From Spirochaetota bacterium (GTDB taxonomy: Bacteria; Spirochaetota; Spirochaetia; Treponematales; UBA12059), in contig JADFDI010000001.1 in assembly GCA_018262985.1 (NCBI GenBank), forward strand, positions 389,027 through 453,026: a stretch of DNA of 64,000 bases, read 5' to 3'. Made by a program: the position numbers and the translations under genes. The notes beneath the pieces were generated by a model. It was not told where the DNA came from. It was given only the letters and a program-made list of their open reading frames with translations, and searched no databases. This document shows, piece after piece, positions 52,393 to 63,846 of the stretch (position 1 is the first letter of the stretch; each line of letters begins with the position of its first letter).

Positions 52393-54501
52393 ATGGCGCG
52401 GGACAACTGGATCATCGACGCGGACAATTTCAACATCTCGACCGGCAAGGACATGCTGCTCCTCAACCAGGAGATGATGGACTACCTCGAGAAGGACAAC
52501 TCCATCCAGTCCTTCGTCGTGGCCACCAAGGGCATCGGCAAGACCATGCTCCTCAAGATGAAGCGCGAGGCCATGGCCGGCTTCCAGATGATACCCGAGA
52601 GCGGCATCGACAAGTTCGCCTTCTCCGACAACCTGAGCCACGACTCGGTCGAGCTCTTCCGCGACCTGCACAACATCGAGTCGATCTGGTCCATCGCCAT
52701 CGTCATGGCCACCCTGCGCCGGCTCTCGTACGAGTTCGCGCCGGACGAGCTCAGCCACTTCCTCCAGGGGCTCTACCGCAAGCGCGGGGTCGGCTCGGTC
52801 TCGGAGTACTTCAGCCACCTGATCCACGCCGACCGCGACGACTACTTCCGCGCGAAGGCCGACCTCGAATCGGTGCTCGTGCCGGCCTACAAGCGCGCGG
52901 TGACGGCGCCGATCGCCATCTTCATCGACAACATCGACGAGTACTTCAACAAGCACCTCGACCCCGGCGCCGCCGAGAGCGTCGCGGGCGCGCTCGAGCC
53001 GGAGCTCTGGTACACCGCGCAGATGGGGCTCGTGCTCTCGTTCTTCAACCTGCACAAGTTCAACCACCACGTGAAGCTCTTCGCCTCGATCCGCAAGGAG
53101 GCGCTGGCGCGCTACCGGAAGGAGCTCGTGCTCTTCCAGCAGGTCGGCGAGCGCACCCTCGAGCTCCGCTACTCCAACCTCGAACTCGAGCGCATCTTCA
53201 TCAACAACCTCCGCCGCGAGCCCCGCGACCGCTTCGTCGACCCCTCCCGCATCGAAAAGGACCCGGTCGCCGCCTGGTTCGGCTTCCCGAGCATCAAGCA
53301 CAAGCAGGTCAAGTCCGACGAGGACCTCTTCCAGTACCTGGCGCGGCATACCCTCTCGCGCCCGCGCGACTTCATGCAGCTCGGCAAAGCCCTGTCGCGC
53401 CTCGCGCCCGAGGAGCGGAACCAGGAGTCGGTGCGCTCCGTGGTGCAGGAGGTGTCGGCGGACATCGTGGGCACCTACCTCTCGGAGGTGCGGCCCCACG
53501 TCGAGGCCATCGACATCCAGCGCGTCCTGCCCTTCATCGACACCAACGCGCTCGACCGCGATCGGCTCCGCGAGATCTGCCGCCAGTACAACGCCGTCGT
53601 CGTCGGCGGCAAGGCCGGCGCCGCCGTCTCGGACAGTCGCAACCTCTGGATACCCTGCGAGGCCGGCGAGTCCGACTGCGCGGGCTGCGAGGGTTGCGAC
53701 GTCTTCGGCATCCTCTACAAGCTCGGCTTCCTCGGCCACCTGATCGACGACGGATCGAAGTCCACCCGCATCCAGAAATTCTGCCTGCCGGGCGAGCGCA
53801 CCTTCGAGGGCGGCAACCTGCTGCCCGACTCCGCGCTCTACCTGATCCATCCCATCCTCAATTCGACCATCATGGAGCGGAACCGCGCCTACATCGGCAA
53901 CCGCAACAAGCGCAACATCGTCGGCAACGGCCTGCTCTGGTACCTCGAGGAAGAGCGCAGCACGCGCCGCAAGTACTGCGCCTTGAAGGCCGACGTCTGC
54001 GGCTTCTCCAGGATCATGGAGCAGGGCGCGAACCGCACGCTCCAGCTCAAGCAGAAGCTCGCCGAGCTGGCCACGGCGGAGAATCTCGGGCTCGAATCGG
54101 TCAGCTACTCCGAGGGCGACGCCGTCTCATGCCTCGAGCGGAACGCCGACCGCGCCGCGGAGGGCGCCTTCCGCCTCCTCGACGCCGTGCGCCGCCTCGG
54201 CCTCGAGGTGCGCGTCGCCCTCGACTGCGGGTTCATGACCGTGGCTGCCACGGGCGCCATGACCGGCACGCCCTTCCTGCATTCCGCCCGCGTCGAGCCC
54301 CTCGTCGAGCCCAACCAGATCTGGTGCACGGAAGCCTTCGCCAAGGAGCTCGCCCGCCTCGGCAGCCTCTACCGCTGCGTCGACCTGTCCGGGAATCCCC
54401 CGGCCGCGCTCGCCGCCCGCCGCGGCGCTTCAGGCTTCATCGTCAGCAAGGAGGGCCAGAGCGGCCTCGAACTGAAGCTGTTCAGGATCGTGAGGGACTA
54501 G
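52393..54501 (+). CDS. P-loop ATPase fused to a class III nucleotidyl-cyclase-like domain
   Basis: The product has 702 residues. Residues 41-51 (FVVATKGIGKT) form a Walker A, 174-185 (IAIFIDNIDEYF) a Walker B with two acidic residues, and 226-237 (HVKLFASIRKEA) a sensor-like strand, as in STAND/KAP-like ATPases. Cys422, Cys429, Cys432 and Cys435 form a possible metal knuckle. Residues about 528-660 resemble a class III adenylyl/guanylyl cyclase: ALKADVCGFSRIM with metal-site Asp534, SYSEGDAVSCLE with Asp576, RVALDCGF, and a final HSARVEP, where the usual Asn is replaced. No membrane segment is seen. The ribosome-binding site is GGAGGAG. Its stop overlaps that of the convergent SARP-type gene (CTAG). 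The function is unknown; ATP-driven control of a nucleotide-making or nucleotide-sensing domain is inference. Confidence 0.75.
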   Translation: MARDNWIIDADNFNISTGKDMLLLNQEMMDYLEKDNSIQSFVVATKGIGKTMLLKMKREAMAGFQMIPESGIDKFAFSDNLSHDSVELFRDLHNIESIWSIAIVMATLRRLSYEFAPDELSHFLQGLYRKRGVGSVSEYFSHLIHADRDDYFRAKADLESVLVPAYKRAVTAPIAIFIDNIDEYFNKHLDPGAAESVAGALEPELWYTAQMGLVLSFFNLHKFNHHVKLFASIRKEALARYRKELVLFQQVGERTLELRYSNLELERIFINNLRREPRDRFVDPSRIEKDPVAAWFGFPSIKHKQVKSDEDLFQYLARHTLSRPRDFMQLGKALSRLAPEERNQESVRSVVQEVSADIVGTYLSEVRPHVEAIDIQRVLPFIDTNALDRDRLREICRQYNAVVVGGKAGAAVSDSRNLWIPCEAGESDCAGCEGCDVFGILYKLGFLGHLIDDGSKSTRIQKFCLPGERTFEGGNLLPDSALYLIHPILNSTIMERNRAYIGNRNKRNIVGNGLLWYLEEERSTRRKYCALKADVCGFSRIMEQGANRTLQLKQKLAELATAENLGLESVSYSEGDAVSCLERNADRAAEGAFRLLDAVRRLGLEVRVALDCGFMTVAATGAMTGTPFLHSARVEPLVEPNQIWCTEAFAKELARLGSLYRCVDLSGNPPAALAARRGASGFIVSKEGQSGLELKLFRIVRD

Positions 54502-57500
54502 GCCCGGGACGCCGCCGCCGCCCGGAACGCGACGGAAGGGTCGCTCCCGCGCCGTTCGGCGCGACTCGGGCGACCGGCGGGCCCGTTGCCCGGGGCGACG
54601 AGCTCCGGTAGCTCCGCGTAGCGGATCCGCGAGCCGCGGAGCCATTCGTCCGAGGAACGCGCGGCGGCTTCGGCGAGATGGCGATCGATCCGGGGTTGCC
54701 CGGACGGCTTCGCGTCCGGCGCTTCGGTCGGCCCCGCCGCGCCCGGCGGAGCGCCCGAGGCGATCCAGGCCGTCTGGGCGATGGTTTCGAGGCCGAGCTC
54801 GCGGCGCAGGGCCCCGAACGCGCCGAGGAGCAGGTCCGCGCCGCGCCGGTCGCCGGCCAGGGCGCGGGCGACGCCCAGCTCGCCGAGGACGAAGACCGCG
54901 TCGCTCCGCGAGCCTATCGAAACGAAAAGCGAGAGCGAGTCGCGGAGCGTGACCTCGGCCTCGTCCGCGCGGCCCGAGAGCGCGGCGTTCATGCCGAGCC
55001 CCTCGAGCGTCCAGGCTTTGAGGAAGGAATCGCCGAGGGCGTCGAAACCGTCGAGGGCGCGCTCGTAGCAAGGCGCCGCTTCCCTGAAGTCGCCGCGGGT
55101 CCTCAGAAGATCGCCGAGCGCCTCGAAGGCGTGCGACTCGATCCATGGATCCTCCGCTTCCCGCGCCAGCCGGACCGCCTCCTCGAGGCCGAGGCGCTGC
55201 CGCTCGTCGCCCGGGCTGCCTCCCGTCGTCCCCAGGTCCCAGACCAGGGCCATCGCGAGCAGCCCCGGATCGCCGAGACCGCGGGCGAGCCTGACGGCGC
55301 GTCGGAGTCGCCCGTCGCCGTTCGCGCGGTCGCCGAGCCAGCGCTCGGCCACGCCGAGGTCGGCCAGGCAACGGACCAGGTCGAGCGAGGCCGGACCGGC
55401 CTCGAGGAGCGCGAGCGCCTCGAGGTAAAAGCCCCGCGCCTCGCGCCAGGCTCCCTGCGTGAAGCGGAGCCAGCCGAGGGCCCTCAGGCAGGCGCCGCGC
55501 AGCGGGCCCGGAGCCTCCCGACCGGCGGCGAGGGCCTTTTCGAGCGAGCGCTGGCCCGAGGCGAATTGCCCCGACCGATACCAGTACCACTCGAGGGCGG
55601 CGCAGAGTCGCAGCGCGTCGTCCGACCCGTCCCGCCCGGCCAGGAAGTCCAGCGCCGCTTCGAAGTTCGCCTCCTCCGGCACGAGCGCGGCGAGGGCCGC
55701 GGTCTGGCAGGGGCCTCGAAGGGCCGAGCTTCCCCGTTCGGCGCGCTCGAGGAAATGCAGGGCGTGCCGACGCCTGATTTCCGGAGCGTCCGGTCGCGCC
55801 TCGAAGAGCTCCAGCGCGAAGTCGCGGATCGATTCGAGAAAGGCGAGGCGTCCTTTCGTCCCCGCGCGCGATTTCCGGAGCAGGTTGGCGGCAACGAGGA
55901 TCTCCAGATCGGCCAGCGCGTCGCCGGCCCCCGGGCGAACCGCCTCCGCCGCTTCCACGTCGAAGCCGTCGGGGAAGACCGCGAGCGCGGAGAACAGCGC
56001 TCGCGCGGAGGGCGGAAGCAGCTCGTGGCTCCAGGCGATGACGGCGCGCAGGCTGCGGTGCCGCGGTGGGCGCGTCCTGCCCGCGGCGTCGGCAAGATCG
56101 AGCTTGCGGTCCATGCGGGCGAGCAGCTCGGCGGGCTCGAGTACGCCCAAGGCGGCCGCCGCGAGCTCCAGGGCCAGGGGCAAGCCGTCGAGCCTGGCGC
56201 ATAGCCGCGCGCAGTCCTCCAGGCCCGGCCCTTCCACGAAGCCGCCCGAGGCGACCTTTTCCGCCCGGAGGAGGAAGAGCTCGAGCGCCGGCCAGGCCGT
56301 TCTCGACGCGGATCGGAGGGACGCTCCTTCGGGCGGGGTCGCGAGGGGTTCGAGCGCGTGGTTCCGTTCCCCGCCCAGGCCGAGGGCGACGCGGCTCGTG
56401 CAGAGCAGGGTGAGTCGCGCGGATGCCGCGAGGAGCCAGGCCACCGCGCGCGCGGCGTCCGGCATTTGTTCGAGGTTGTCGAGGACGACGAGGCTCCGCC
56501 CCCTTCCGAGCCTCGCCTCGATCCGGTCCGACAGGGCGGCGGGCGATTCCTCCCGCTCGCCGAGGCCGATGGAAGCCGCCACGGCGTAGGGCAGACGATC
56601 CTTGTCCCGCAGGGCGGAAAGATCGACGAACCAGGCGCCTCCGGGGAAGGCTCCGCGCTCCAGCCGGAGCAAGGCCCTGGCCACGCTAGTCTTGCCGACG
56701 CCGCCGGGGCCGGTGATCGAATGGAGCCGATCCGCGCCCGAGCGAAGCGCCGCGCCGATCGCGGCCAGCTCCCGTTCCCGACCGACAAGCCGATGCTCCG
56801 GATCCTCCGGCGGGGAGTCCTCGCCCGAGGGTTCGATGAGTATCTTCGTGCTCTCCGCCGGCTCCCGTCCCAGCTCCTCGCGAACCAGCGCTTCCCAGGT
56901 CCGGTAGCGTTCGCGGGCCTGGTCTTCGTTGCCGAGTTCGAGGAGAACGCCGATCTGGAACCTGCGGGCTTCTTCGTCGAAGGGGGCGGCGTTGATCCAG
57001 TCCGACGCGAGCGCCGCGGCCTCGCGCGTCCGCGCGGTTCCCGCGAAACGCAGGGCCAGCCGCCTCAGCGCGGACACCCGGGCATCACGGAGCCGTCCCG
57101 CCTTCTCGAACTGCCAGTCGTCGAAGCCGCGGCTGTCGGGGAGGAAAAATCCTTCCATGAATCCCCCGCGCCACAAGCGTAGGGCCGCCGTGAGCGAGGA
57201 TTCGCAACGCGCGCAGGCCAGCTCGGGGACGTGGCACTCGCAAGGACCGACCAGGCCGAGGAACTCCGCGGCGTCGATCCGGAGCGCTCCCGCGTCGAGC
57301 GAAACCTGGTCCCCGGCCGTGCGGAAGAGTTCCTGCCCGAGCTCGTGCTCGAGCTCGAAGAGGGAGCGGCGCAGGTTCGATCGAGCGCGGACCTGGTCGC
57401 GCTCGGGCCAGAGGAAGGCGGACAGGCTGTCCCGGCCGTGCATGCCGGGTTCGAGCGCCAGGTAGGCGAGCAGCGCGAAGGACTTGCGCCGCGTGAACAG

Positions 57501-57599
57501 GACTGGTTCGCCAGCGCGGCTCAGCAGGGGCACGCCGAGCAGGGCCAGGGAAAGCGCCGCCGGATCCCGGACTCCGGCTTTCCCGTCGCTTTTTTCCAT
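54498..57599 (-). CDS. AfsR/SARP-type regulator: wHTH-BTAD, NB-ARC ATPase, TPR
   Basis: The product has 1033 residues. Residues about 15-105 are an OmpR-like winged helix (LALLGVPLLSRAGEPVLFTRRKSFALLAYLALEP), and 110-255 a BTAD domain. The STAND ATPase has Walker A GPGGVGKT (297-304) and Walker B VVLDNLEQM (371-379). The C-terminal 500 residues are TPR-like. This is the AfsR/GutR type of one-component activator, common in actinomycetes and less familiar in spirochaetes. The start at 57599 is fixed by its promoter. Neighbouring direct repeats suggest autocontrol and control of the divergent lipoprotein gene. Confidence 0.88.
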   Translation of the reverse strand: MEKSDGKAGVRDPAALSLALLGVPLLSRAGEPVLFTRRKSFALLAYLALEPGMHGRDSLSAFLWPERDQVRARSNLRRSLFELEHELGQELFRTAGDQVSLDAGALRIDAAEFLGLVGPCECHVPELACARCESSLTAALRLWRGGFMEGFFLPDSRGFDDWQFEKAGRLRDARVSALRRLALRFAGTARTREAAALASDWINAAPFDEEARRFQIGVLLELGNEDQARERYRTWEALVREELGREPAESTKILIEPSGEDSPPEDPEHRLVGRERELAAIGAALRSGADRLHSITGPGGVGKTSVARALLRLERGAFPGGAWFVDLSALRDKDRLPYAVAASIGLGEREESPAALSDRIEARLGRGRSLVVLDNLEQMPDAARAVAWLLAASARLTLLCTSRVALGLGGERNHALEPLATPPEGASLRSASRTAWPALELFLLRAEKVASGGFVEGPGLEDCARLCARLDGLPLALELAAAALGVLEPAELLARMDRKLDLADAAGRTRPPRHRSLRAVIAWSHELLPPSARALFSALAVFPDGFDVEAAEAVRPGAGDALADLEILVAANLLRKSRAGTKGRLAFLESIRDFALELFEARPDAPEIRRRHALHFLERAERGSSALRGPCQTAALAALVPEEANFEAALDFLAGRDGSDDALRLCAALEWYWYRSGQFASGQRSLEKALAAGREAPGPLRGACLRALGWLRFTQGAWREARGFYLEALALLEAGPASLDLVRCLADLGVAERWLGDRANGDGRLRRAVRLARGLGDPGLLAMALVWDLGTTGGSPGDERQRLGLEEAVRLAREAEDPWIESHAFEALGDLLRTRGDFREAAPCYERALDGFDALGDSFLKAWTLEGLGMNAALSGRADEAEVTLRDSLSLFVSIGSRSDAVFVLGELGVARALAGDRRGADLLLGAFGALRRELGLETIAQTAWIASGAPPGAAGPTEAPDAKPSGQPRIDRHLAEAAARSSDEWLRGSRIRYAELPELVAPGNGPAGRPSRAERRGSDPSVAFRAAAASRA

Positions 57600-57608
57600 G
57601 TTACGGCG

Positions 57609-57637
57609 AGTATTCGCCAGCCGCGGGCCGTTTGCAA
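57609..57637 (-). promoter_or_regulatory. Near-leaderless promoter of the SARP-type gene
   Basis: On the minus strand: TTGCAA (57637-57632), 17 bp spacer, AATACT (57614-57609), nine bases to the ATG at 57599. Confidence 0.6.
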
Positions 57638-57650
57638 CGCTCCTGCAACG
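57633..57650 (+). promoter_or_regulatory. Heptamer direct repeat typical of SARP binding sites
   Basis: TGCAACG (57633-57639), 4-bp spacer CTCC, TGCAACG (57644-57650). The 11-bp period is the spacing described for SARP-family sites. It overlaps the -35 of the SARP-type gene and lies upstream of the lipoprotein gene at 57697. Confidence 0.55.
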
Positions 57651-57696
57651 CCCTCGCGCGAGGATTGGGATATCTGGAATCCAGAGAGGAGGCACC

Positions 57697-58248
57697 ATGT
57701 ATCGGAAAGTTCGCGGAACGGGCCTGGCGGCCCTCGTCGTCCTCGCGTTCGTCGCGGCCGGATGCGCCGGCGGCCCCGAGATCCTCGGCGAAGCCGGAGT
57801 CCTGGCCGGCACCTGGCGCGGAGGCTCGGCCTACGAGCCCGGCGCGGATCCGGAGACCGGCCTCGGAGTCCGCTACCTGCTCAGCCTGACGCCCCTGGGC
57901 GGCGGGCGCTTCGGCGCGACCTGGGAAGGCTCCTACGTCCTGCCCGAAGGCTACGCGCGGATGACCCGCTACAGCGGTGAACTGGCGAAGCGCGCGGACG
58001 GCGGCTACGAGGTCCTCGGTATCGCCTTTTTCAACAGCTCGGCGGTCTTCCCCCCCGACACGCTCCCGCAGGTGTGGGCCATCCACGGCAAGGCCGAGCT
58101 GCTCGGCGACGGCCGCCTGAGGATCACCTACGACGGCTTCGAGGTCCACGATTGGAATTCCCGTCCCTTCGTCGATCCGCCGCTGTTCCGGCCCGTCCCG
58201 ACGCCCATCGTCGAGATCTACCGCCGCGTCGAGTTCGGCGGGAAGTAA
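57697..58248 (+). CDS. Small lipoprotein, divergent from the SARP-type regulator
   Basis: The product has 183 residues. The signal ends VAAGC with Cys23. The mature part (GTWRGGSAYEPGADPETGLGVRYLLSLTPLGGGRFGATWEGSYVLPEG) is beta-rich and lipocalin/META-like in pattern, with no named family recognised. An AGAGGAGG ribosome-binding site sets the ATG at 57697; the longer frame upstream runs through the SARP-type gene. It is the probable target of that regulator, on position and operator evidence. Confidence 0.75.
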   Translation: MYRKVRGTGLAALVVLAFVAAGCAGGPEILGEAGVLAGTWRGGSAYEPGADPETGLGVRYLLSLTPLGGGRFGATWEGSYVLPEGYARMTRYSGELAKRADGGYEVLGIAFFNSSAVFPPDTLPQVWAIHGKAELLGDGRLRITYDGFEVHDWNSRPFVDPPLFRPVPTPIVEIYRRVEFGGK

Positions 58249-58409
58249 CGGAAGCCCTCTCCTCCGGCGGCCGCCCTCCTCGTTTTCCTCGGGGAAAGAG
58301 GGGAGGGGCCGTCCGGGGCGAGGCTCCGCCTCGTCGCCATGCGGAGGGACGGTCCCGGGAAAATCGGCCGAATCGCAAGCGTCATCCGCTTTTCGAGCGG
58401 TATGGCGGC

Positions 58410-58934
58410 ATGCGTGAACCAAGGAACGTTAAAACCGGGATCCTGCACCTCGTCACGTGCCGGGTCGTGAACGACGAGCGGCTCCTCGCGCCGCCCGAGG
58501 CCAAGGATCTCTTCGTCGAGGACCTGGGTCGGCTCCGGGAGAAATACGGGGGCCTCGTCGTCGATTTTTCCGTGCTGGACGACCACGTCCACCTGCTCTT
58601 CGAGCCGAGGGGGAGCGCCGACCTGGCCGTCAACATGCGGTGGCTTTTCGGCGTCTTCGCCATGCGCTACAACCGGCGCTACGGTTCGTCGGGACACCTC
58701 TGGGGCCGGCGCTACGACTCGCGTCCGATCCGCGGCGGCGCCGAGCTTCTCGAGGCCATCGAACGAATCGACGACAACGCCGTGCGAGCGGGCCTCGCGG
58801 AGCGTCCCGAGGATTGGGAATGGAGCGGCCTCGGTCAGCGCCGCCGGGGCGACGCGAGCGCGATAGGCGAGCCGCCCCCCTGGCTCGGCCTGATCGCGAG
58901 CGCGCACCGGGCCCGCGCGCCTATTTCTTCCTGA
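58410..58934 (+). CDS. REP-associated-type (RAYT) Y1 transposase
   Basis: The product has 174 residues. LDDHVHLLFEPRG carries the HUH metal motif (HVH), and MRWLFGVFAMRYNRRYGSSGHLWGRRYDSRPI is the conserved IS200-like/RAYT block with the likely catalytic Tyr. The C-terminus (ELLEAIERIDDNAVRAGLAERPEDWEWSGLG) is typical of RAYTs. No terminal inverted repeats or second insertion-sequence gene flank it, so it is probably a domesticated single-copy transposase, of the kind that spreads REP hairpins. It overlaps the convergent S1-domain gene by 14 bp. Confidence 0.85.
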   Translation: MREPRNVKTGILHLVTCRVVNDERLLAPPEAKDLFVEDLGRLREKYGGLVVDFSVLDDHVHLLFEPRGSADLAVNMRWLFGVFAMRYNRRYGSSGHLWGRRYDSRPIRGGAELLEAIERIDDNAVRAGLAERPEDWEWSGLGQRRRGDASAIGEPPPWLGLIASAHRARAPISS

Positions 58935-60084
58935 GCAGGGCCGCGAAGGGGTTGTAGGTCTCGGTATCGTCCGGGCCGTCCAGGTATTTGGACGTCGTCG
59001 CGTCCTCCTCGACCGAGCTCGCCGGTTTCAAGGAGATGCGCCTGTTCGCCTGGTCCACGCCGAGGATCTGCACCGAAACGGTCTGCCCGACCTTGAGGCC
59101 CGCATCGCGCCGCCCGCCGTACGCGCCGGCCTTGCTGATTTCGGACTCGTGGAGGAGGCCGTCGAGGCCGGGCTCCAGGGTGACGAAGGCCCCGAACGCG
59201 GCCAGGCGGGCCACCGTGCCCGCGTGCTTCGAGCCCTCCGGGTACTTCTCCGCCGCGGTATCCCAGGGATCGGCCAGGAGGCTCTTCATGCTGAGCGTGA
59301 TGCGCTCGTTCGGCCAGTCGATCTTGAGGACGGCCGCCCGGACTTCCTGGCCGACGGAGAGGACGGCGTGGACGTCCTCGACCCGCGAGCGGCCGAGCTC
59401 GGAGACGGGCAGGAGGGCCTGGGCGCCGCCCAGGTCGACGAAGGCGCCGAAGGACTGGATGGACGCGACGGGACCGGAAACGACCATGCCCTCGCGGAGG
59501 GTCTTCTTCAGCTCCTCGAGCCGCTCCAGGCGGGCTGCCTCGTGGATGGCCCGGTTCGAGACGAGGATCCTGCGGCCGCCTTCCTTGAATTCCTCGATCC
59601 TGAAAGGCAGGCGCTTGCCAACATGCTCCGCGGGGTCGTCCGCGCGCCGCTCGCCCATCTTGGAATAGGGACAGAAGGCGCGGAACTCGCCGATTTTCAC
59701 GTCGTAGCCGCCCTTGATCTCCTTCTCGACCAGGCCCTCCACCGGAGTCTTGTCGAGGCAGGCCTGCTCCAGCATTCCCGCGCCGGCCTTGGACCCGTCG
59801 ATCTTCGTGGTGAAGCGCATGTCGCCGTTCTCGGCGTCGAGGAAGTAGGCCCGGATGCGGTCTCCCACCTTGACGGAGAGGTTCCCGTCCCCGTCGCGGA
59901 GCTCGTCCAGGTCGAGGAGGCCCTCGTTCTTTCCGTTGAGCCGCACGAACACGCAGTCCCTCGATATCGACACGACCTCGGTCTCGAGCGCCTGGCCGGG
60001 CTTGTAGTATTCCATGCCCGAAAAGCTCTGTTCGTACATCTTCGCGAGCGCGTCGGACTTCGGGTCTGAATGGAGCGCTTTCAT
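58921..60084 (-). CDS. S1-domain RNA-binding protein (ribosomal protein S1-like)
   Basis: The product has 387 residues with four S1-type OB folds: about 30-95 (GQALETEVVSISRDCVFVRL), 110-180, 197-265 (LREGMVVSGPVASIQSFGAFVDLGGAQALLPVSEL) and 285-362 (HAGTVARLAAFGAFVTLEPGLDGLLHESEIS). The GAFV(D/T)L loops are canonical. It lacks the six domains of E. coli S1, so it is either the ribosomal protein in shortened form or an accessory RNA-binding paralog. The start has GGGGGGA and its own promoter. Confidence 0.87.
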   Translation of the reverse strand: MKALHSDPKSDALAKMYEQSFSGMEYYKPGQALETEVVSISRDCVFVRLNGKNEGLLDLDELRDGDGNLSVKVGDRIRAYFLDAENGDMRFTTKIDGSKAGAGMLEQACLDKTPVEGLVEKEIKGGYDVKIGEFRAFCPYSKMGERRADDPAEHVGKRLPFRIEEFKEGGRRILVSNRAIHEAARLERLEELKKTLREGMVVSGPVASIQSFGAFVDLGGAQALLPVSELGRSRVEDVHAVLSVGQEVRAAVLKIDWPNERITLSMKSLLADPWDTAAEKYPEGSKHAGTVARLAAFGAFVTLEPGLDGLLHESEISKAGAYGGRRDAGLKVGQTVSVQILGVDQANRRISLKPASSVEEDATTSKYLDGPDDTETYNPFAALLRKK

Positions 60085-60107
60085 CGGTGTTCCCCCCGGG
60101 TGGGACG

Positions 60108-60136
60108 ATTGTAGCAGGAAAGGGCGACATGTGGAA
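60108..60136 (-). promoter_or_regulatory. Promoter of the S1-domain gene
   Basis: On the minus strand: TTCCAC (60136-60131), 17 bp spacer, TACAAT (60113-60108), 23 bp before the ATG. Confidence 0.55.
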
Positions 60137-60277
60137 ACACCGGATCAAGAGGGGGAGCATCGGGTTTGACGTGGCGCTCCGCGCGCCATCGTCTACGCGG
60201 CTCCCCCTGCCTCCGAAGTCCTCGCCCGCAGCGCGGGCTCCGGGCTTCTCCGGCACCCCCACTCTCTCTTGCCGTTA

Positions 60278-61339
60278 TTACCGTCCGTCCGCGCGAAGGC
60301 GAGCAGTCAAAGACCAATACCACATCGCTTCGGGGACCGCCTTGAGCCTGCGGATCGCCGCTAATTCCTCAGGGAAGGCAAGGGTCTTTAGGGTGCTCAA
60401 GCTAGCTTCGCTGTAGCGCAAGCCCGAGAGATCCACGTTACTCCGCATGGCTTGGGTGAGAAGCGCTGCCTTCGCCGCGGCAGTCTTCATTTCCTCCCGA
60501 CGGAACCTGGCGCCGACAAGGTGACTCTCAAGTTGCCTGCGACCAAGCTCCATGAGTTCGCAACGCCCGTCGGTCGGCGCTCCCGAGAGGCCAACCTGGG
60601 CCATGCAGTAGGCGGTCGAATAAGCGTCGTCCAGCGCCTGCTCGGATGTGAAACGCCCGCCTCGATACCTGTTTTCGGCAGCGAATATCGACTCGTAGGC
60701 CTTCCTCGCCTCGGAAATGTCCGAGGCCGCGTCGAAAAGCTCCCCTATATCGAAAACCTGTTTCATGAATTGCATGGAGTAGCGATCGGAAAGCGGGATG
60801 CCGGTCGTATTCGGGCCGAAGGCGGTGAGCTTGTCGCCGAGGAGCCCTTCCACCGTCGGGACAAGAAGGCTTCCGTCACCTTCCACGAAGGACGTTCGGA
60901 GCGGCAGGGCTTCGACCTTGGGGTAGAGGCTTCTTTCCTTCACGACATCGAGGAGGACGAAAGGCGCGGGATTCCTTGGATCGAGGGGGACATAGGAGAA
61001 CTTGAAATGCCGTCTGGACGGAAGGCGATTCGGTCCTCTCTCGTCTTCGGCCATGCGGGTAAACGGACGGCTTTGGCTGACTTCCGCGAGCAGTCGATCC
61101 AGGCTGGAATCAGGTTGCTCGCAGATGATGTCCGCGTCGATGGAGAGCCGGCGGATTCAGGGAAGCCGGAGAAGGAGGCTTGTCCCGCCCTTGAAGATGA
61201 ACTCAAGTCCCTTTTCCGCCAGGGCATCGAGGAGGGCAAAGGCGTGAATCGTTTTTTCAAGCAAGACTGGATCGCAGCCGCCGAGTTCCGCTCGCTTCCG
61301 TTCCTGCCATTCGGCGCCAAAGCATTTTGGATCAATCAT
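60278..61339 (-). pseudogene. AbiEii/AbiGii-type nucleotidyltransferase toxin, interrupted by one in-frame UGA
   Basis: The frame reads MIDPKCFGAEWQERKR... to FKGGTSLLLRLP, hits TGA at 61159-61157, and continues in the same frame as IRRLSIDADIICEQPDSSL through MAEDERGPN... to 60278 (353 codons besides stops). FKGGTSLxL and RRLSIDADI are the two halves of the AbiEii nucleotidyltransferase motif (GGTSL and the DxD pair), with the stop lying exactly between them. The downstream part alone (258 residues from 61054) lacks the active site. It is either a recently inactivated toxin or a recoded one. The antitoxin-like gene lies 15 bp upstream. Confidence 0.75.
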
Positions 61340-61354
61340 GCTCGCTCCGACAAA

Positions 61355-62110
61355 TCAATTCCGCCTAATTATCATAGGCGGAATTAGTTGATCGTCAGGT
61401 CTGAATAGCAGGCCAGGCTGGAGCTTCCTTTCCCTCGCGTAGCTCAGGAGCGTGGCCATGTTGATCCGTCGCGTGCCGGCGAGATTGGCCAACATGGCGT
61501 GGTACTCATCCGTCGCCATGAAGCCGAGATCGCGGGACTCGAAATAGAGTTCCACGAGCAGGTTTTCGATGGGAGCGACATGATCACGAGCCCGGTTCTT
61601 GACGCTTGACCGCCGAATGACCACGGAGCGCTTGCGCGGGCTAAAACGGGCGGCGTCCTTCCCGCGCGGGTTGAGATGGGCATCCCAGCCAGAATCGCGC
61701 AAGTGTCCGTAGACGGCATCCATCGCATCGCCTTCCACCATGACAAAGGCTACGAATGACCCCAGGAGATGGTGCGTGCCGCCCTGGATCTCCGCCGTGG
61801 ACCAGCAGGTGAAATTCACCAGGGGGAAGGCTCTTTCCAGGTCGCCGGCAAGGTCGTGGATTGCCGAGGCGTCGAGTTCGAAGGGGAGCGCGAGCCGCGA
61901 ATACCAGCCTCTTCCCGCATCGTAAATGAACGCGGAGGCGGTGAAGTCGTGCAGGTATCGGTTGAGTGTGCTGTCCTTGAAAGGTACCCCTCGCTTGACC
62001 AGGAAGCGGCGTATCTCCCCGAGGGGGAAATACGGCGCTTCCTTCGAGAGGGCGGGGAGGCAGGCATCGCGGAGGAAGGTCTTTAGTTCGATCTGACTGG
62101 CCTGCTTCAT
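61355..62110 (-). CDS. AbiEi-like antitoxin/regulator partner of the AbiEii-type toxin
   Basis: The product has 251 residues from the ATG at 62110, which has a GGAGGAGG ribosome-binding site. The N-terminus (KTFLRDACLPALSKEAPYFPLGEIRRFLVKRGVPFKDSTLNRYLHDF) looks like a winged helix-turn-helix. The middle (FPLVNFTCWSTAEIQ, FVMVEGDAMDAVYGHL, SVVIRRSSVKNR) resembles the DUF6577/AbiEi group of antitoxins beside AbiEii toxins. It should repress its operon and neutralise the toxin. The family assignment rests on pattern and gene context. Confidence 0.65.
   Translation of the reverse strand: MKQASQIELKTFLRDACLPALSKEAPYFPLGEIRRFLVKRGVPFKDSTLNRYLHDFTASAFIYDAGRGWYSRLALPFELDASAIHDLAGDLERAFPLVNFTCWSTAEIQGGTHHLLGSFVAFVMVEGDAMDAVYGHLRDSGWDAHLNPRGKDAARFSPRKRSVVIRRSSVKNRARDHVAPIENLLVELYFESRDLGFMATDEYHAMLANLAGTRRINMATLLSYARERKLQPGLLFRPDDQLIPPMIIRRN
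61357..61385 (-). promoter_or_regulatory. Hairpin across the antitoxin stop and toxin leader
   Basis: AATTCCGCCTA (61357-61367) pairs perfectly with TAGGCGGAATT (61375-61385), 7-nt loop. It spans the last antitoxin codons and ends 17 bp before the toxin start, so it could limit toxin translation. Confidence 0.55.
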
Positions 62111-62181
62111 ACGCCTCCTCCTTCCCGTAAGTATCGCATTCCCGCGCAAGCTCTCCAGGCCGCGATGCGCGACTCCCAGGG

Positions 62182-63846
62182 CTATTTCTTCCGAGTCTTG
62201 CCGCTGCCGCTCTCCGAGCCTGGCTTGCCATAGGGCAGCAGGGGCAGGCCAAGCTCCTTCAGGAACTCATTGTGCGCGCTCGTCGCCCTCGCTATCTCCG
62301 CCTCGATATCCACGAGCTCCTTGTGCACGGCGGCAAGGTCGATCTCCTCCTCCGCGACCGCGGTGCTCACGTAGCGGGAAATGTTCAGGTTGTAGCCATT
62401 GTCGACGATCTCTTTCATCGACACGCGCCGCGAGTAGCGGTCCCGCTTCTTCCGGAGTTGGTAGGTGGTGACGATGTCCTCGATATGCTTGTCAGTCAGC
62501 TGGTTCTGGCGCTTGCCCTTCTCGAAGTGCTCGGCGGCGTTGATGAAGAGGACGTCGTCGGGCTTCTTGCACTTCTTGAGCACGAGGATGCAGACGGGAA
62601 TGCCGGTCGAATAGAAGAGGTTCGCCGGGAGGCCGATCACCGTGTCGATGTGGCCGTCGTCGAGGAGCTTGCGGCGTATGCGCTCCTCGACGCCGCCGCG
62701 GAAGAGGACGCCATGGGGCAGGATGATCGCCATCACGCCGTCGTCCTTGAGGTAGTGGAGCCCGTGGAGGAGGAAGGCGAAGTCGGCCGCGCTCTTGGGC
62801 GCCACCCCGTGGTTCTTGAAGCGCGGGTCCTCGCCCATCGCCTCGCCCGGCTCCCAGCGATAGCTGAAAGGCGGATTGGCCACCACCGCGTCGAAGCGCG
62901 GCATCTTGGCCGGGTTCGTCTCGCGCAGGAAGTCCCAGTCGTTGGTCAGGGTGTCGCCGTGGTAGATCTCGAACTCGCCGTCCTTGACTCCGTGGAGCAG
63001 CATGTTCATGCGCGCCAGGTTGTACGTGGTGATGTTCTTCTCCATACCGTAGATCTTGCCGATGGTACCGCCAGCCTCTTTCATGCGGTGGCGCACGTTG
63101 AGGAGGAGGGAGCCCGAGCCGCAGGCGAAGTCGAAGACGCTCTCCAACTTGTTCCGCTTTCCGGTCTTGGGTTCCTGTCCGTCCAGCGTGACGATGGCCG
63201 AGAGGATCGAGGAAATCTGCTGGGGCGTGTAGAACTCGCCGGCTTTCTTCCCCGAGCCCGCGGCGAACTGGCCGATGAGGTACTCGTAGGCGTCGCCCAG
63301 GGCGTCGGTGTCGCGCGAGAAAAGCGACATGCCCCGCGAAATCTCGGAAATGATGGAACAGAGCTTGGCGTTGCGGTCCGGGTATTTCCTCCCGAGCTTG
63401 TCCGAGCCCAGGTTGATCTCGGAGAAGAGGCCCTGGAAGTTGCTCTGGAAGGAGTCTTCCTCGATGTGCTTGAAACCCTTTTGGAGCGTATCGAGAAGCC
63501 TGTCGTCCTGTGTCTTCGCCAGGTGGACGATGTTGCCCCAGAGGTACTGCGGCTCGATGACGTAATGGAGCTTGCGGCGCATCAGCTTTTCGAAGTCGGG
63601 CACGTCCTTGGGGTTCTGCCGGTACCAGAGCGCCAGCGGCGGCTCCCCTTCACCGTTTTCCTGTTTCGGATAGTCCCTTCCCAGTTCCTTCTTCGCCGCC
63701 GCCTCGTAGTTGCTGGAGAGGTAGCGGAGGAAGAGGAAGGAGAGCATGTAGTCGCGGAAATCGTCGGCGTTCATCGCGCCACGGAGCTGGTCGGCGATGT
63801 TCCAGAGGGTCTTGCCGAGTTCTCGCTGGTTTAGGTCGGTCATCAT
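62182..63846 (-). CDS. hsdM: Type I restriction-modification system methyltransferase subunit
   Basis: The product has 554 residues. The N-terminal HsdM_N helical domain (about 1-165) is followed by the N6-adenine methyltransferase domain: GEFYTPQQISSILSAIV, SAM motif DFACGSGSLLLN (239-250) and catalytic NPPF (324-327) in VVANPPFSYRWEPGEAMG. It methylates adenine in the bipartite target chosen by HsdS. A Ser/Gly/Lys tail ends the protein. The HsdS C-terminus lies upstream on the same strand; no HsdR is inside the window. Confidence 0.94.
   Translation of the reverse strand: MMTDLNQRELGKTLWNIADQLRGAMNADDFRDYMLSFLFLRYLSSNYEAAAKKELGRDYPKQENGEGEPPLALWYRQNPKDVPDFEKLMRRKLHYVIEPQYLWGNIVHLAKTQDDRLLDTLQKGFKHIEEDSFQSNFQGLFSEINLGSDKLGRKYPDRNAKLCSIISEISRGMSLFSRDTDALGDAYEYLIGQFAAGSGKKAGEFYTPQQISSILSAIVTLDGQEPKTGKRNKLESVFDFACGSGSLLLNVRHRMKEAGGTIGKIYGMEKNITTYNLARMNMLLHGVKDGEFEIYHGDTLTNDWDFLRETNPAKMPRFDAVVANPPFSYRWEPGEAMGEDPRFKNHGVAPKSAADFAFLLHGLHYLKDDGVMAIILPHGVLFRGGVEERIRRKLLDDGHIDTVIGLPANLFYSTGIPVCILVLKKCKKPDDVLFINAAEHFEKGKRQNQLTDKHIEDIVTTYQLRKKRDRYSRRVSMKEIVDNGYNLNISRYVSTAVAEEEIDLAAVHKELVDIEAEIARATSAHNEFLKELGLPLLPYGKPGSESGSGKTRKK

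Follow-up and report, generated by a model that had tools for sequence, protein, structure and literature searches.

A direct repeat of two heptamers between an AfsR-like regulator gene and a divergent lipoprotein gene is best read as the operator on which this regulator, acting as an AfsR-type activator, would switch on its neighbor. We consider this reading likely from comparison of sequences, with both binding and activation being predicted. A compact AfsR-like circuit had been proposed in a sequence-only reading of the window (the whole stretch of 64,000 nucleotides of this spirochaete that was analysed), and the proposal is now supported by conservation of the repeat, by an AfsR domain order, by the predicted fold of the regulator and by the spacing between the repeat and a -10 hexamer, contact with DNA being predicted. 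What stands against it is the poor fit of one relative (G058), the weakness of the -10 hexamer in the window and the alteration of base-reading residues in the regulator.

The regulator (1033 aa, 54498-57599, minus strand) has the architecture of the large SARPs of the AfsR type. An N-terminal DNA-binding domain is followed by a BTAD domain (PF03704, residues 109-254, E 4.5e-13 in Pfam), and then by NB-ARC (291-524) and, towards the C-terminus, TPR_12 (826-891), both above the curated Pfam cut-offs; the NB-ARC/AAA region extends over about 270-524 and the TPR region falls within about 674-891. No receiver domain, the hallmark of the OmpR/PhoB kind, was found by Pfam at E 0.1. An AlphaFold model of residues 1-270, built from six sequences with a mean pLDDT of 88, gave its best structural matches to AfsR (8k60, Z 19.0; 8hvr, Z 18.3), followed by EmbR of Mycobacterium tuberculosis (PDB 2fez and 2ff4, Z 17.3 and 17.1), while the next entry reached only 11.7. 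The alignments behind the best AfsR and EmbR scores span 236-239 residues, the EmbR match covering its DNA-binding and BTA fold over 239 residues, and a profile of the six N-terminal domains matched EmbR (E 3.5e-6) and AfsR (E 7.5e-5) along the domain. The N-terminal domain is thus AfsR/EmbR-like in its predicted fold, but EmbR carries a C-terminal FHA domain where the present regulator ends in NB-ARC and TPR.

Conservation of individual DNA contacts is less complete. The excerpts of the AfsR study give Q48, W74, P79, T88, R94 and K95 as DNA contacts common to Streptomyces SARPs, and R92 as a base contact (PMC10936776). In the alignment, read by eye, the counterparts of AfsR W74 and R87 are W64 and R77, kept in 6/6 rows, whereas the R92 position is Glu or Asp and both R94 and K95 are lost. 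Because R92 is replaced by an acidic residue and R94/K95 are not kept, we do not file the regulator as a Streptomyces-type SARP; the comparison supports a protein that would work like a SARP, though not of the Streptomyces type in detail. The six aligned N-terminal domains also share an invariant Cys-x2-His-x5-Cys-x2-Cys motif (C120, H123, C129 and C132), and residues 120-132 of the regulator, inside its BTAD domain, are a possible metal or redox site.

The repeat with its 11-bp period is present exactly as first described, TGCAACG-CTCC-TGCAACG at 57633-57650. In the direction of the lipoprotein gene (plus strand) its heptamers occupy 57633-57639 and 57644-57650, and on the regulator strand the same element reads CGTTGCA-GGAG-CGTTGCA. 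It stands in a 97-bp spacer (57600-57696) between the two genes. In exact form the pair is a single-copy element, found nowhere else in the window or in the 3.44-Mb genome, where the control has no copy. Allowing up to two mismatches, 5 places were found in the source genome and 5 for the reversed control; the window site is the sole place with fewer than two mismatches, and the other four, all carrying two, were rejected as a regulon since the number of places equals that of the control. At 3 mismatches the window contains 2 matches, below the shuffle mean of 3.9, so that the weight of the observation rests on exactness, place and conservation. The spacers of the source genome and its sister (G002) show 12 differences, all outside 57624-57654, the longest unchanged stretch (31 bp), which contains both heptamers.

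At E <= 1e-60, the regulator found matches in 9 of the 390 genomes of the order. In G005 and G064 the match begins only near residue 258, which leaves 7/390 genomes with the N-terminal domain. Identity of the orthologues to the regulator is 99% in G002, 50% in G058, 45% in G010 and G015, 40% in G091, where the gene is cut by the contig end, and 38% in G052. A profile of the N-terminal domain retrieved no additional orthologue from 30 genomes of the family of G052 or from 392 genomes of the phylum; the two other profile matches, in G058 (contig C240) and G580, are different proteins.

Absence of the heptamers from relatives had been named as an observation that would count against the circuit. 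We ran this comparison, and the pair was found upstream of the regulator in 7/7 orthologues, in degenerate form (3 mismatches) in G058. On the regulator strand it reads as above in the source genome and G002, CGTTGCA-GAAC-CGTTGCG in G010 and G015, CGTTGCA-AAAC-CGTTTCA in G052, CGTTGCA-AAAT-CGTTTCA in G091 and CGTTGCA-GGAT-CGCGGAA in G058. Viewed in the lipoprotein direction, the second heptamer is identical at 9/9 compared sites and the first varies (CGCAACG, TGAAACG or TTCCGCG in relatives). A test blind to the heptamer, which searched five 150-bp upstream regions (G000, the source genome, and G010, G052, G091 and G058) for repeats of periods 8 to 30 with 2 mismatches allowed in 14, recovered CGTTGCA repeated at period 11 in 4/5 regions; the best at any other period was 0 or 1, and no dinucleotide shuffle out of 2000 gave as many as 3 regions.

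Sites with at most one mismatch were present in 7/7 genomes with the regulator and in 0/2 chosen relatives without it (G001 and G017). The nine chosen genomes together hold 12 such places and the reversed control 5, so that weight can be given to a site only if it is perfect or linked to the regulator. A repeat pattern derived from the G010/G015 and G052 sites was found in 5/390 genomes of the order (control 0) and missed G000, G002, G058 and G091. Two of its matches, in G146 (L037) and G310 (L039), lie inside long open frames in genomes without the regulator, and tblastn with the regulator gave no match at either locus; both were dismissed as chance.

The heptamer appears to be particular to this orthologue group and not a general feature of BTAD proteins. 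Seven paralogue loci with the NB-ARC/TPR part alone in common (L009-L013, L017 and L031) had no site outside genes and a single 3-mismatch match within a gene; for L011 just 187 bp precede the match, probably short of the gene start, and the scan covered these seven among the weaker matches. The distant BTAD proteins comprised L014 and L060 (G022), L045 and L061 (G058) and L049 (G580), the last read by eye. The CGTTGCA pair is absent from L061 at up to 3 mismatches and from L045 at up to 4, L060 has one match at up to 3 mismatches inside a gene, and the L014 gene has no period-11 repeat within 260 bp upstream. Since these proteins are without the pair where scanned, the heptamer appears to belong to the orthologue group. 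The small BTAD protein of G058 contig C240 has its own upstream repeats, three direct copies of GCGGCCGTC... at a 22-bp spacing (L061, 1589-1656), which adjoin a divergent gene whose product has a signal-like start; 22 bp is the other period of the SARP rule, and these repeats are a candidate second SARP-style operator of different sequence.

Promoter geometry was scored against the TTGACA/TATAAT consensus, with weights that are approximate E. coli frequencies. In the lipoprotein direction, the likely -10 is GAGGAT at 57660-57665 (plus strand; GAAGAT in G002), which starts 9 bp past the second heptamer and matches the -10 consensus at 3/6 bases. A hexamer with A at its second position and T at its sixth stands exactly 9 bp past the second heptamer at 7/9 sites (GAGGAT, GACGCT, AAAGCT, TACAAT, GAGAAT, AATACT and TAGGCT), a tally that does not depend on the weights and that 0/5000 shuffles equalled. 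The nine sites leave out the G002 site and two G015 sites, as near-copies of those in G000 and G010, and share genomes in part (two from G010, two from G058 and three from G091). An earlier set, also with near-copies dropped, gave 5/7 sites, with 1/3000 shuffles as good over 26 offsets. Both misses come from G058: at the regulator promoter it has a degenerate copy with no -10 at 9 bp, and its perfect site, before the GNAT and DinB-like genes, has AGACTT there. At the later G091 sites rival offsets compete, offset 6 being equal on contig C125 and offset 15 better on C230. One further site with one mismatch (L072, on contig C11 of G015) points back into the preceding gene, with TCGTTT at 9 bp, and was dropped; its inclusion would bring the tally to 7/10.

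The excerpted description of SARP sites sets 8 bp between the 3' repeat and the -10 and gives 11 or 22 bp as the spacing of the repeats (PMC10936776). The predicted -10 here, at 9 bp, is one base off that distance, and the target promoter carries direct repeats at the 11-bp spacing. The -10 spacing supports, separately from the repeat, a SARP-style activation predicted to run towards the gene on the lipoprotein side.

The repeat had also been said to overlap the -35 of the regulator, and the predicted regulator promoter agrees, with a likely -35, TTGCAA, at 57632-57637 and a likely -10, AATACT (AATAAT in G002), at 57609-57614, both on the minus strand and 17 bp apart. This promoter has 8/12 consensus bases in the window and 9/12 in the sister genome; a generic promoter scan with a threshold of 9/12 found no regulator promoter. 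With it, the transcript would start only about 3 bases ahead of the ATG at 57599, which puts in doubt either the start site or the start codon of the regulator. A -35-like hexamer (TTGCAA, TTGCAG or TTGCGC) inside a heptamer and 17 bp from a -10-like hexamer was seen at 7/7 regulator promoters (G058 by eye), in the near heptamer in G000, G002, G010 and G015 and in the far one in G052, G058 and G091, and in the latter three genomes alternative placements score equally. The distance to the -10 varies in this direction (7 or 18 bp) and the pooled signal is weak, 23/3000 shuffles being as good and 210/3000 for the count of A2/T6 hexamers; the regulator side of the geometry is therefore the less certain one.

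These observations suggest a mechanism in which two regulator protomers would sit side by side, one per heptamer, on a single helix face. In the lipoprotein direction the pair would occupy the -35 position, 9 bp upstream of a poor -10, and the bound regulator would substitute for the missing -35 contact and recruit RNA polymerase in the way of AfsR at afsS. In the same bound state the regulator would cover its own likely -35 and would for that reason probably limit its own synthesis, while the NB-ARC/TPR part may gate activity by nucleotide and a signal. Binding, activation, negative autoregulation and the signal are all steps that we infer.

An autorepressor that only blocks its own -35, with the lipoprotein-side gene not a true target, would explain the -35-like hexamer found within a heptamer at all seven regulator promoters, ties in three of them included, and self-repression is common among regulators. 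We consider this unlikely, since sites elsewhere precede DUF4440 genes (the second sites of G010 and G015 and that on contig C125 of G091) and the fixed 9-bp spacing runs in the direction of the target. It is slightly more doubtful that the repeat is bound by a separately encoded protein of the OmpR/PhoB kind, with the AfsR-like gene as one of its targets. Domains of that type likewise use 11-bp direct repeats, but the sites track the AfsR-like regulator among the genomes compared, being absent from both chosen relatives without it, and the sole good site of the source genome adjoins its gene.

With thousands of spacers in play, a perfect pair of 7-mers at a given period within one of 97 bp would not be very unusual, and the heptamers might accordingly be a chance repeat, or -35 promoter sequence kept for other reasons. 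This is very improbable, given that the repeat is kept beside regulators just 38-50% identical and that neither the period test nor the spacing test was matched by a single shuffle. An AfsR-type activator acting on its own operator is the reading with which we proceed.

The predicted output in the window is a lipoprotein of 183 aa (57697-58248, plus strand, ATG at 57697), with a lipobox, VAAGC, and Cys23 recognized by eye. As the sequence-only reading had it, this is a single divergent gene, the next one being a transposase at 58410. A ribosome-binding-site-like GAGAGGAGG, also picked by eye, lies at 57684-57692 on the plus strand and is the same in G002, as is CTGGAATCCAG at 57674-57684, a short palindrome immediately 5' of it. 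The protein had no Pfam or NCBIfam match at E 0.1, and its model is a beta-barrel of low confidence (pLDDT 61). A nitrobindin-like fold was put aside as a hint at most (Foldseek E 2.4e-5, TM 0.37, sequence profile E 0.04). The lipoprotein is present in 2/58 genomes (G000 and G002), and a draw of 392 genomes of the phylum gave one marginal match, in G201 (E 9.8e-4), apart from which it was seen in this genus alone.

Elsewhere the genes next to the sites are different. In G010 and G015 the gene row contains a second DUF4440 gene, and a second perfect site precedes it. DUF4440 was above the Pfam cut-off in 4/5 of the genes first tested, and the fifth, beside the regulator of G091, scored 24.5 against 25.2 bits; the assignments rest on a Pfam run for the G010 copies, on 90% identity for the second G015 gene and on inspection by eye for the first G015 gene. 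A signal-like start, judged by eye, was seen in the first G010 gene, in both G052 genes and in the G091 gene, and the second genes of G010 and G015 are without one. On other contigs, G091 has two more perfect sites, both with A2/T6 at 9 bp: that on C125 precedes a clear DUF4440 gene with a signal-like start and then a second DUF4440-like frame, and the other precedes a 67-aa open frame with no Pfam match. The perfect site of G058 lies between the regulator stop and a GNAT gene, which is followed by the DinB-like gene. The predicted output gene is therefore not conserved, being a lipoprotein here and DUF4440 or GNAT/DinB genes in relatives. A DinB-like gene downstream of the regulator (L029, 425-1474, and L028 of G052) was noted in G058 and, by eye, in G052, and it may be a downstream partner of the regulator in that branch.

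In the congener G001, the sequences matching 52669-54509 and 58354-60140 are 222 bp apart, which means that regulator, site and lipoprotein are absent together, a cassette of 54510-58353; part of those 222 bp resembles 60168-60222. Downstream of the lipoprotein gene, 58410-58934 encodes a REP-associated tyrosine transposase-like protein (64.4 bits in NCBIfam against a cut-off of 80; Y1_Tnp in Pfam), and this gene is also found in G001, which has no cassette. On the other side, 52393-54501 encodes an Sll1717-like P-loop ATPase (70.7 bits, cut-off 75), convergent with the regulator gene and overlapping its end by 4 bp. Farther on, an AbiEii/AbiEi-like toxin-antitoxin pair (60278-62149) and a type I methyltransferase gene (62182-63846) form a defence cluster adjoining an S1-domain gene. 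None of the nearest genes (P-loop ATPase, lipoprotein, REP-type transposase and S1-domain protein) is biosynthetic.

Among described systems, AfsR of Streptomyces coelicolor has the same SARP-NOD-TPR order and N-terminal fold, and the afs box of its afsS promoter likewise has two 11-bp direct repeats over the -35 position, as set out in the excerpts of PMC10936776. Both promoters have a poor -10 that keeps A2 and T6 (CACTGT at afsS, GAGGAT here), and the -10-proximal repeat, invariant here, is in AfsR the one that tolerates mutation less well (PMC10936776). The two differ in the heptamer and in the base-reading residues already described, and the present system has one operator in its genome, a lipoprotein gene as output and a spirochaete host. 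SARP-LAL regulators such as PimR share the 7-bp direct repeats with 4-bp spacers and a unique target gene, and in PimR relatives the operator lies in the intergenic stretch that separates the target gene from the regulator gene, as here; unlike the present site, the main PimR operator has three CGGCAAG repeats, does not overlap a -35 and serves an antibiotic cluster (excerpts of PMC5930380).

SARP/AfsR-type targets in the literature found belong to Streptomyces and other Actinobacteria. Among the matches listed in the open-licence literature none describes a SARP-type operator from a spirochaete, and no paper was found there on DUF4440 together with SARP. We tentatively put forward, as a possibility about which we stop short of confidence, that regulator and operator travel among spirochaetes as a portable AfsR-type switch, one that retains the operator and its 9-bp distance to the -10 and swaps the gene under its control (the beta-barrel-like lipoprotein, DUF4440 proteins or GNAT/DinB). 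If this is true, SARP-style recruitment of RNA polymerase, which the literature found describes from Actinobacteria only, would extend to a further phylum, where the base-reading helix would be rewired and the outputs would often be envelope or secreted proteins. In this spirochaete group the sequence by itself is enough to name the operator, its orientation, the promoter spacing and likely targets. The group would offer a second phylum, and a small probe of about 100 bp, for testing sigma adaptation by SARP domains, as well as a handle on the signals to which the DUF4440 proteins and the lipoprotein respond.
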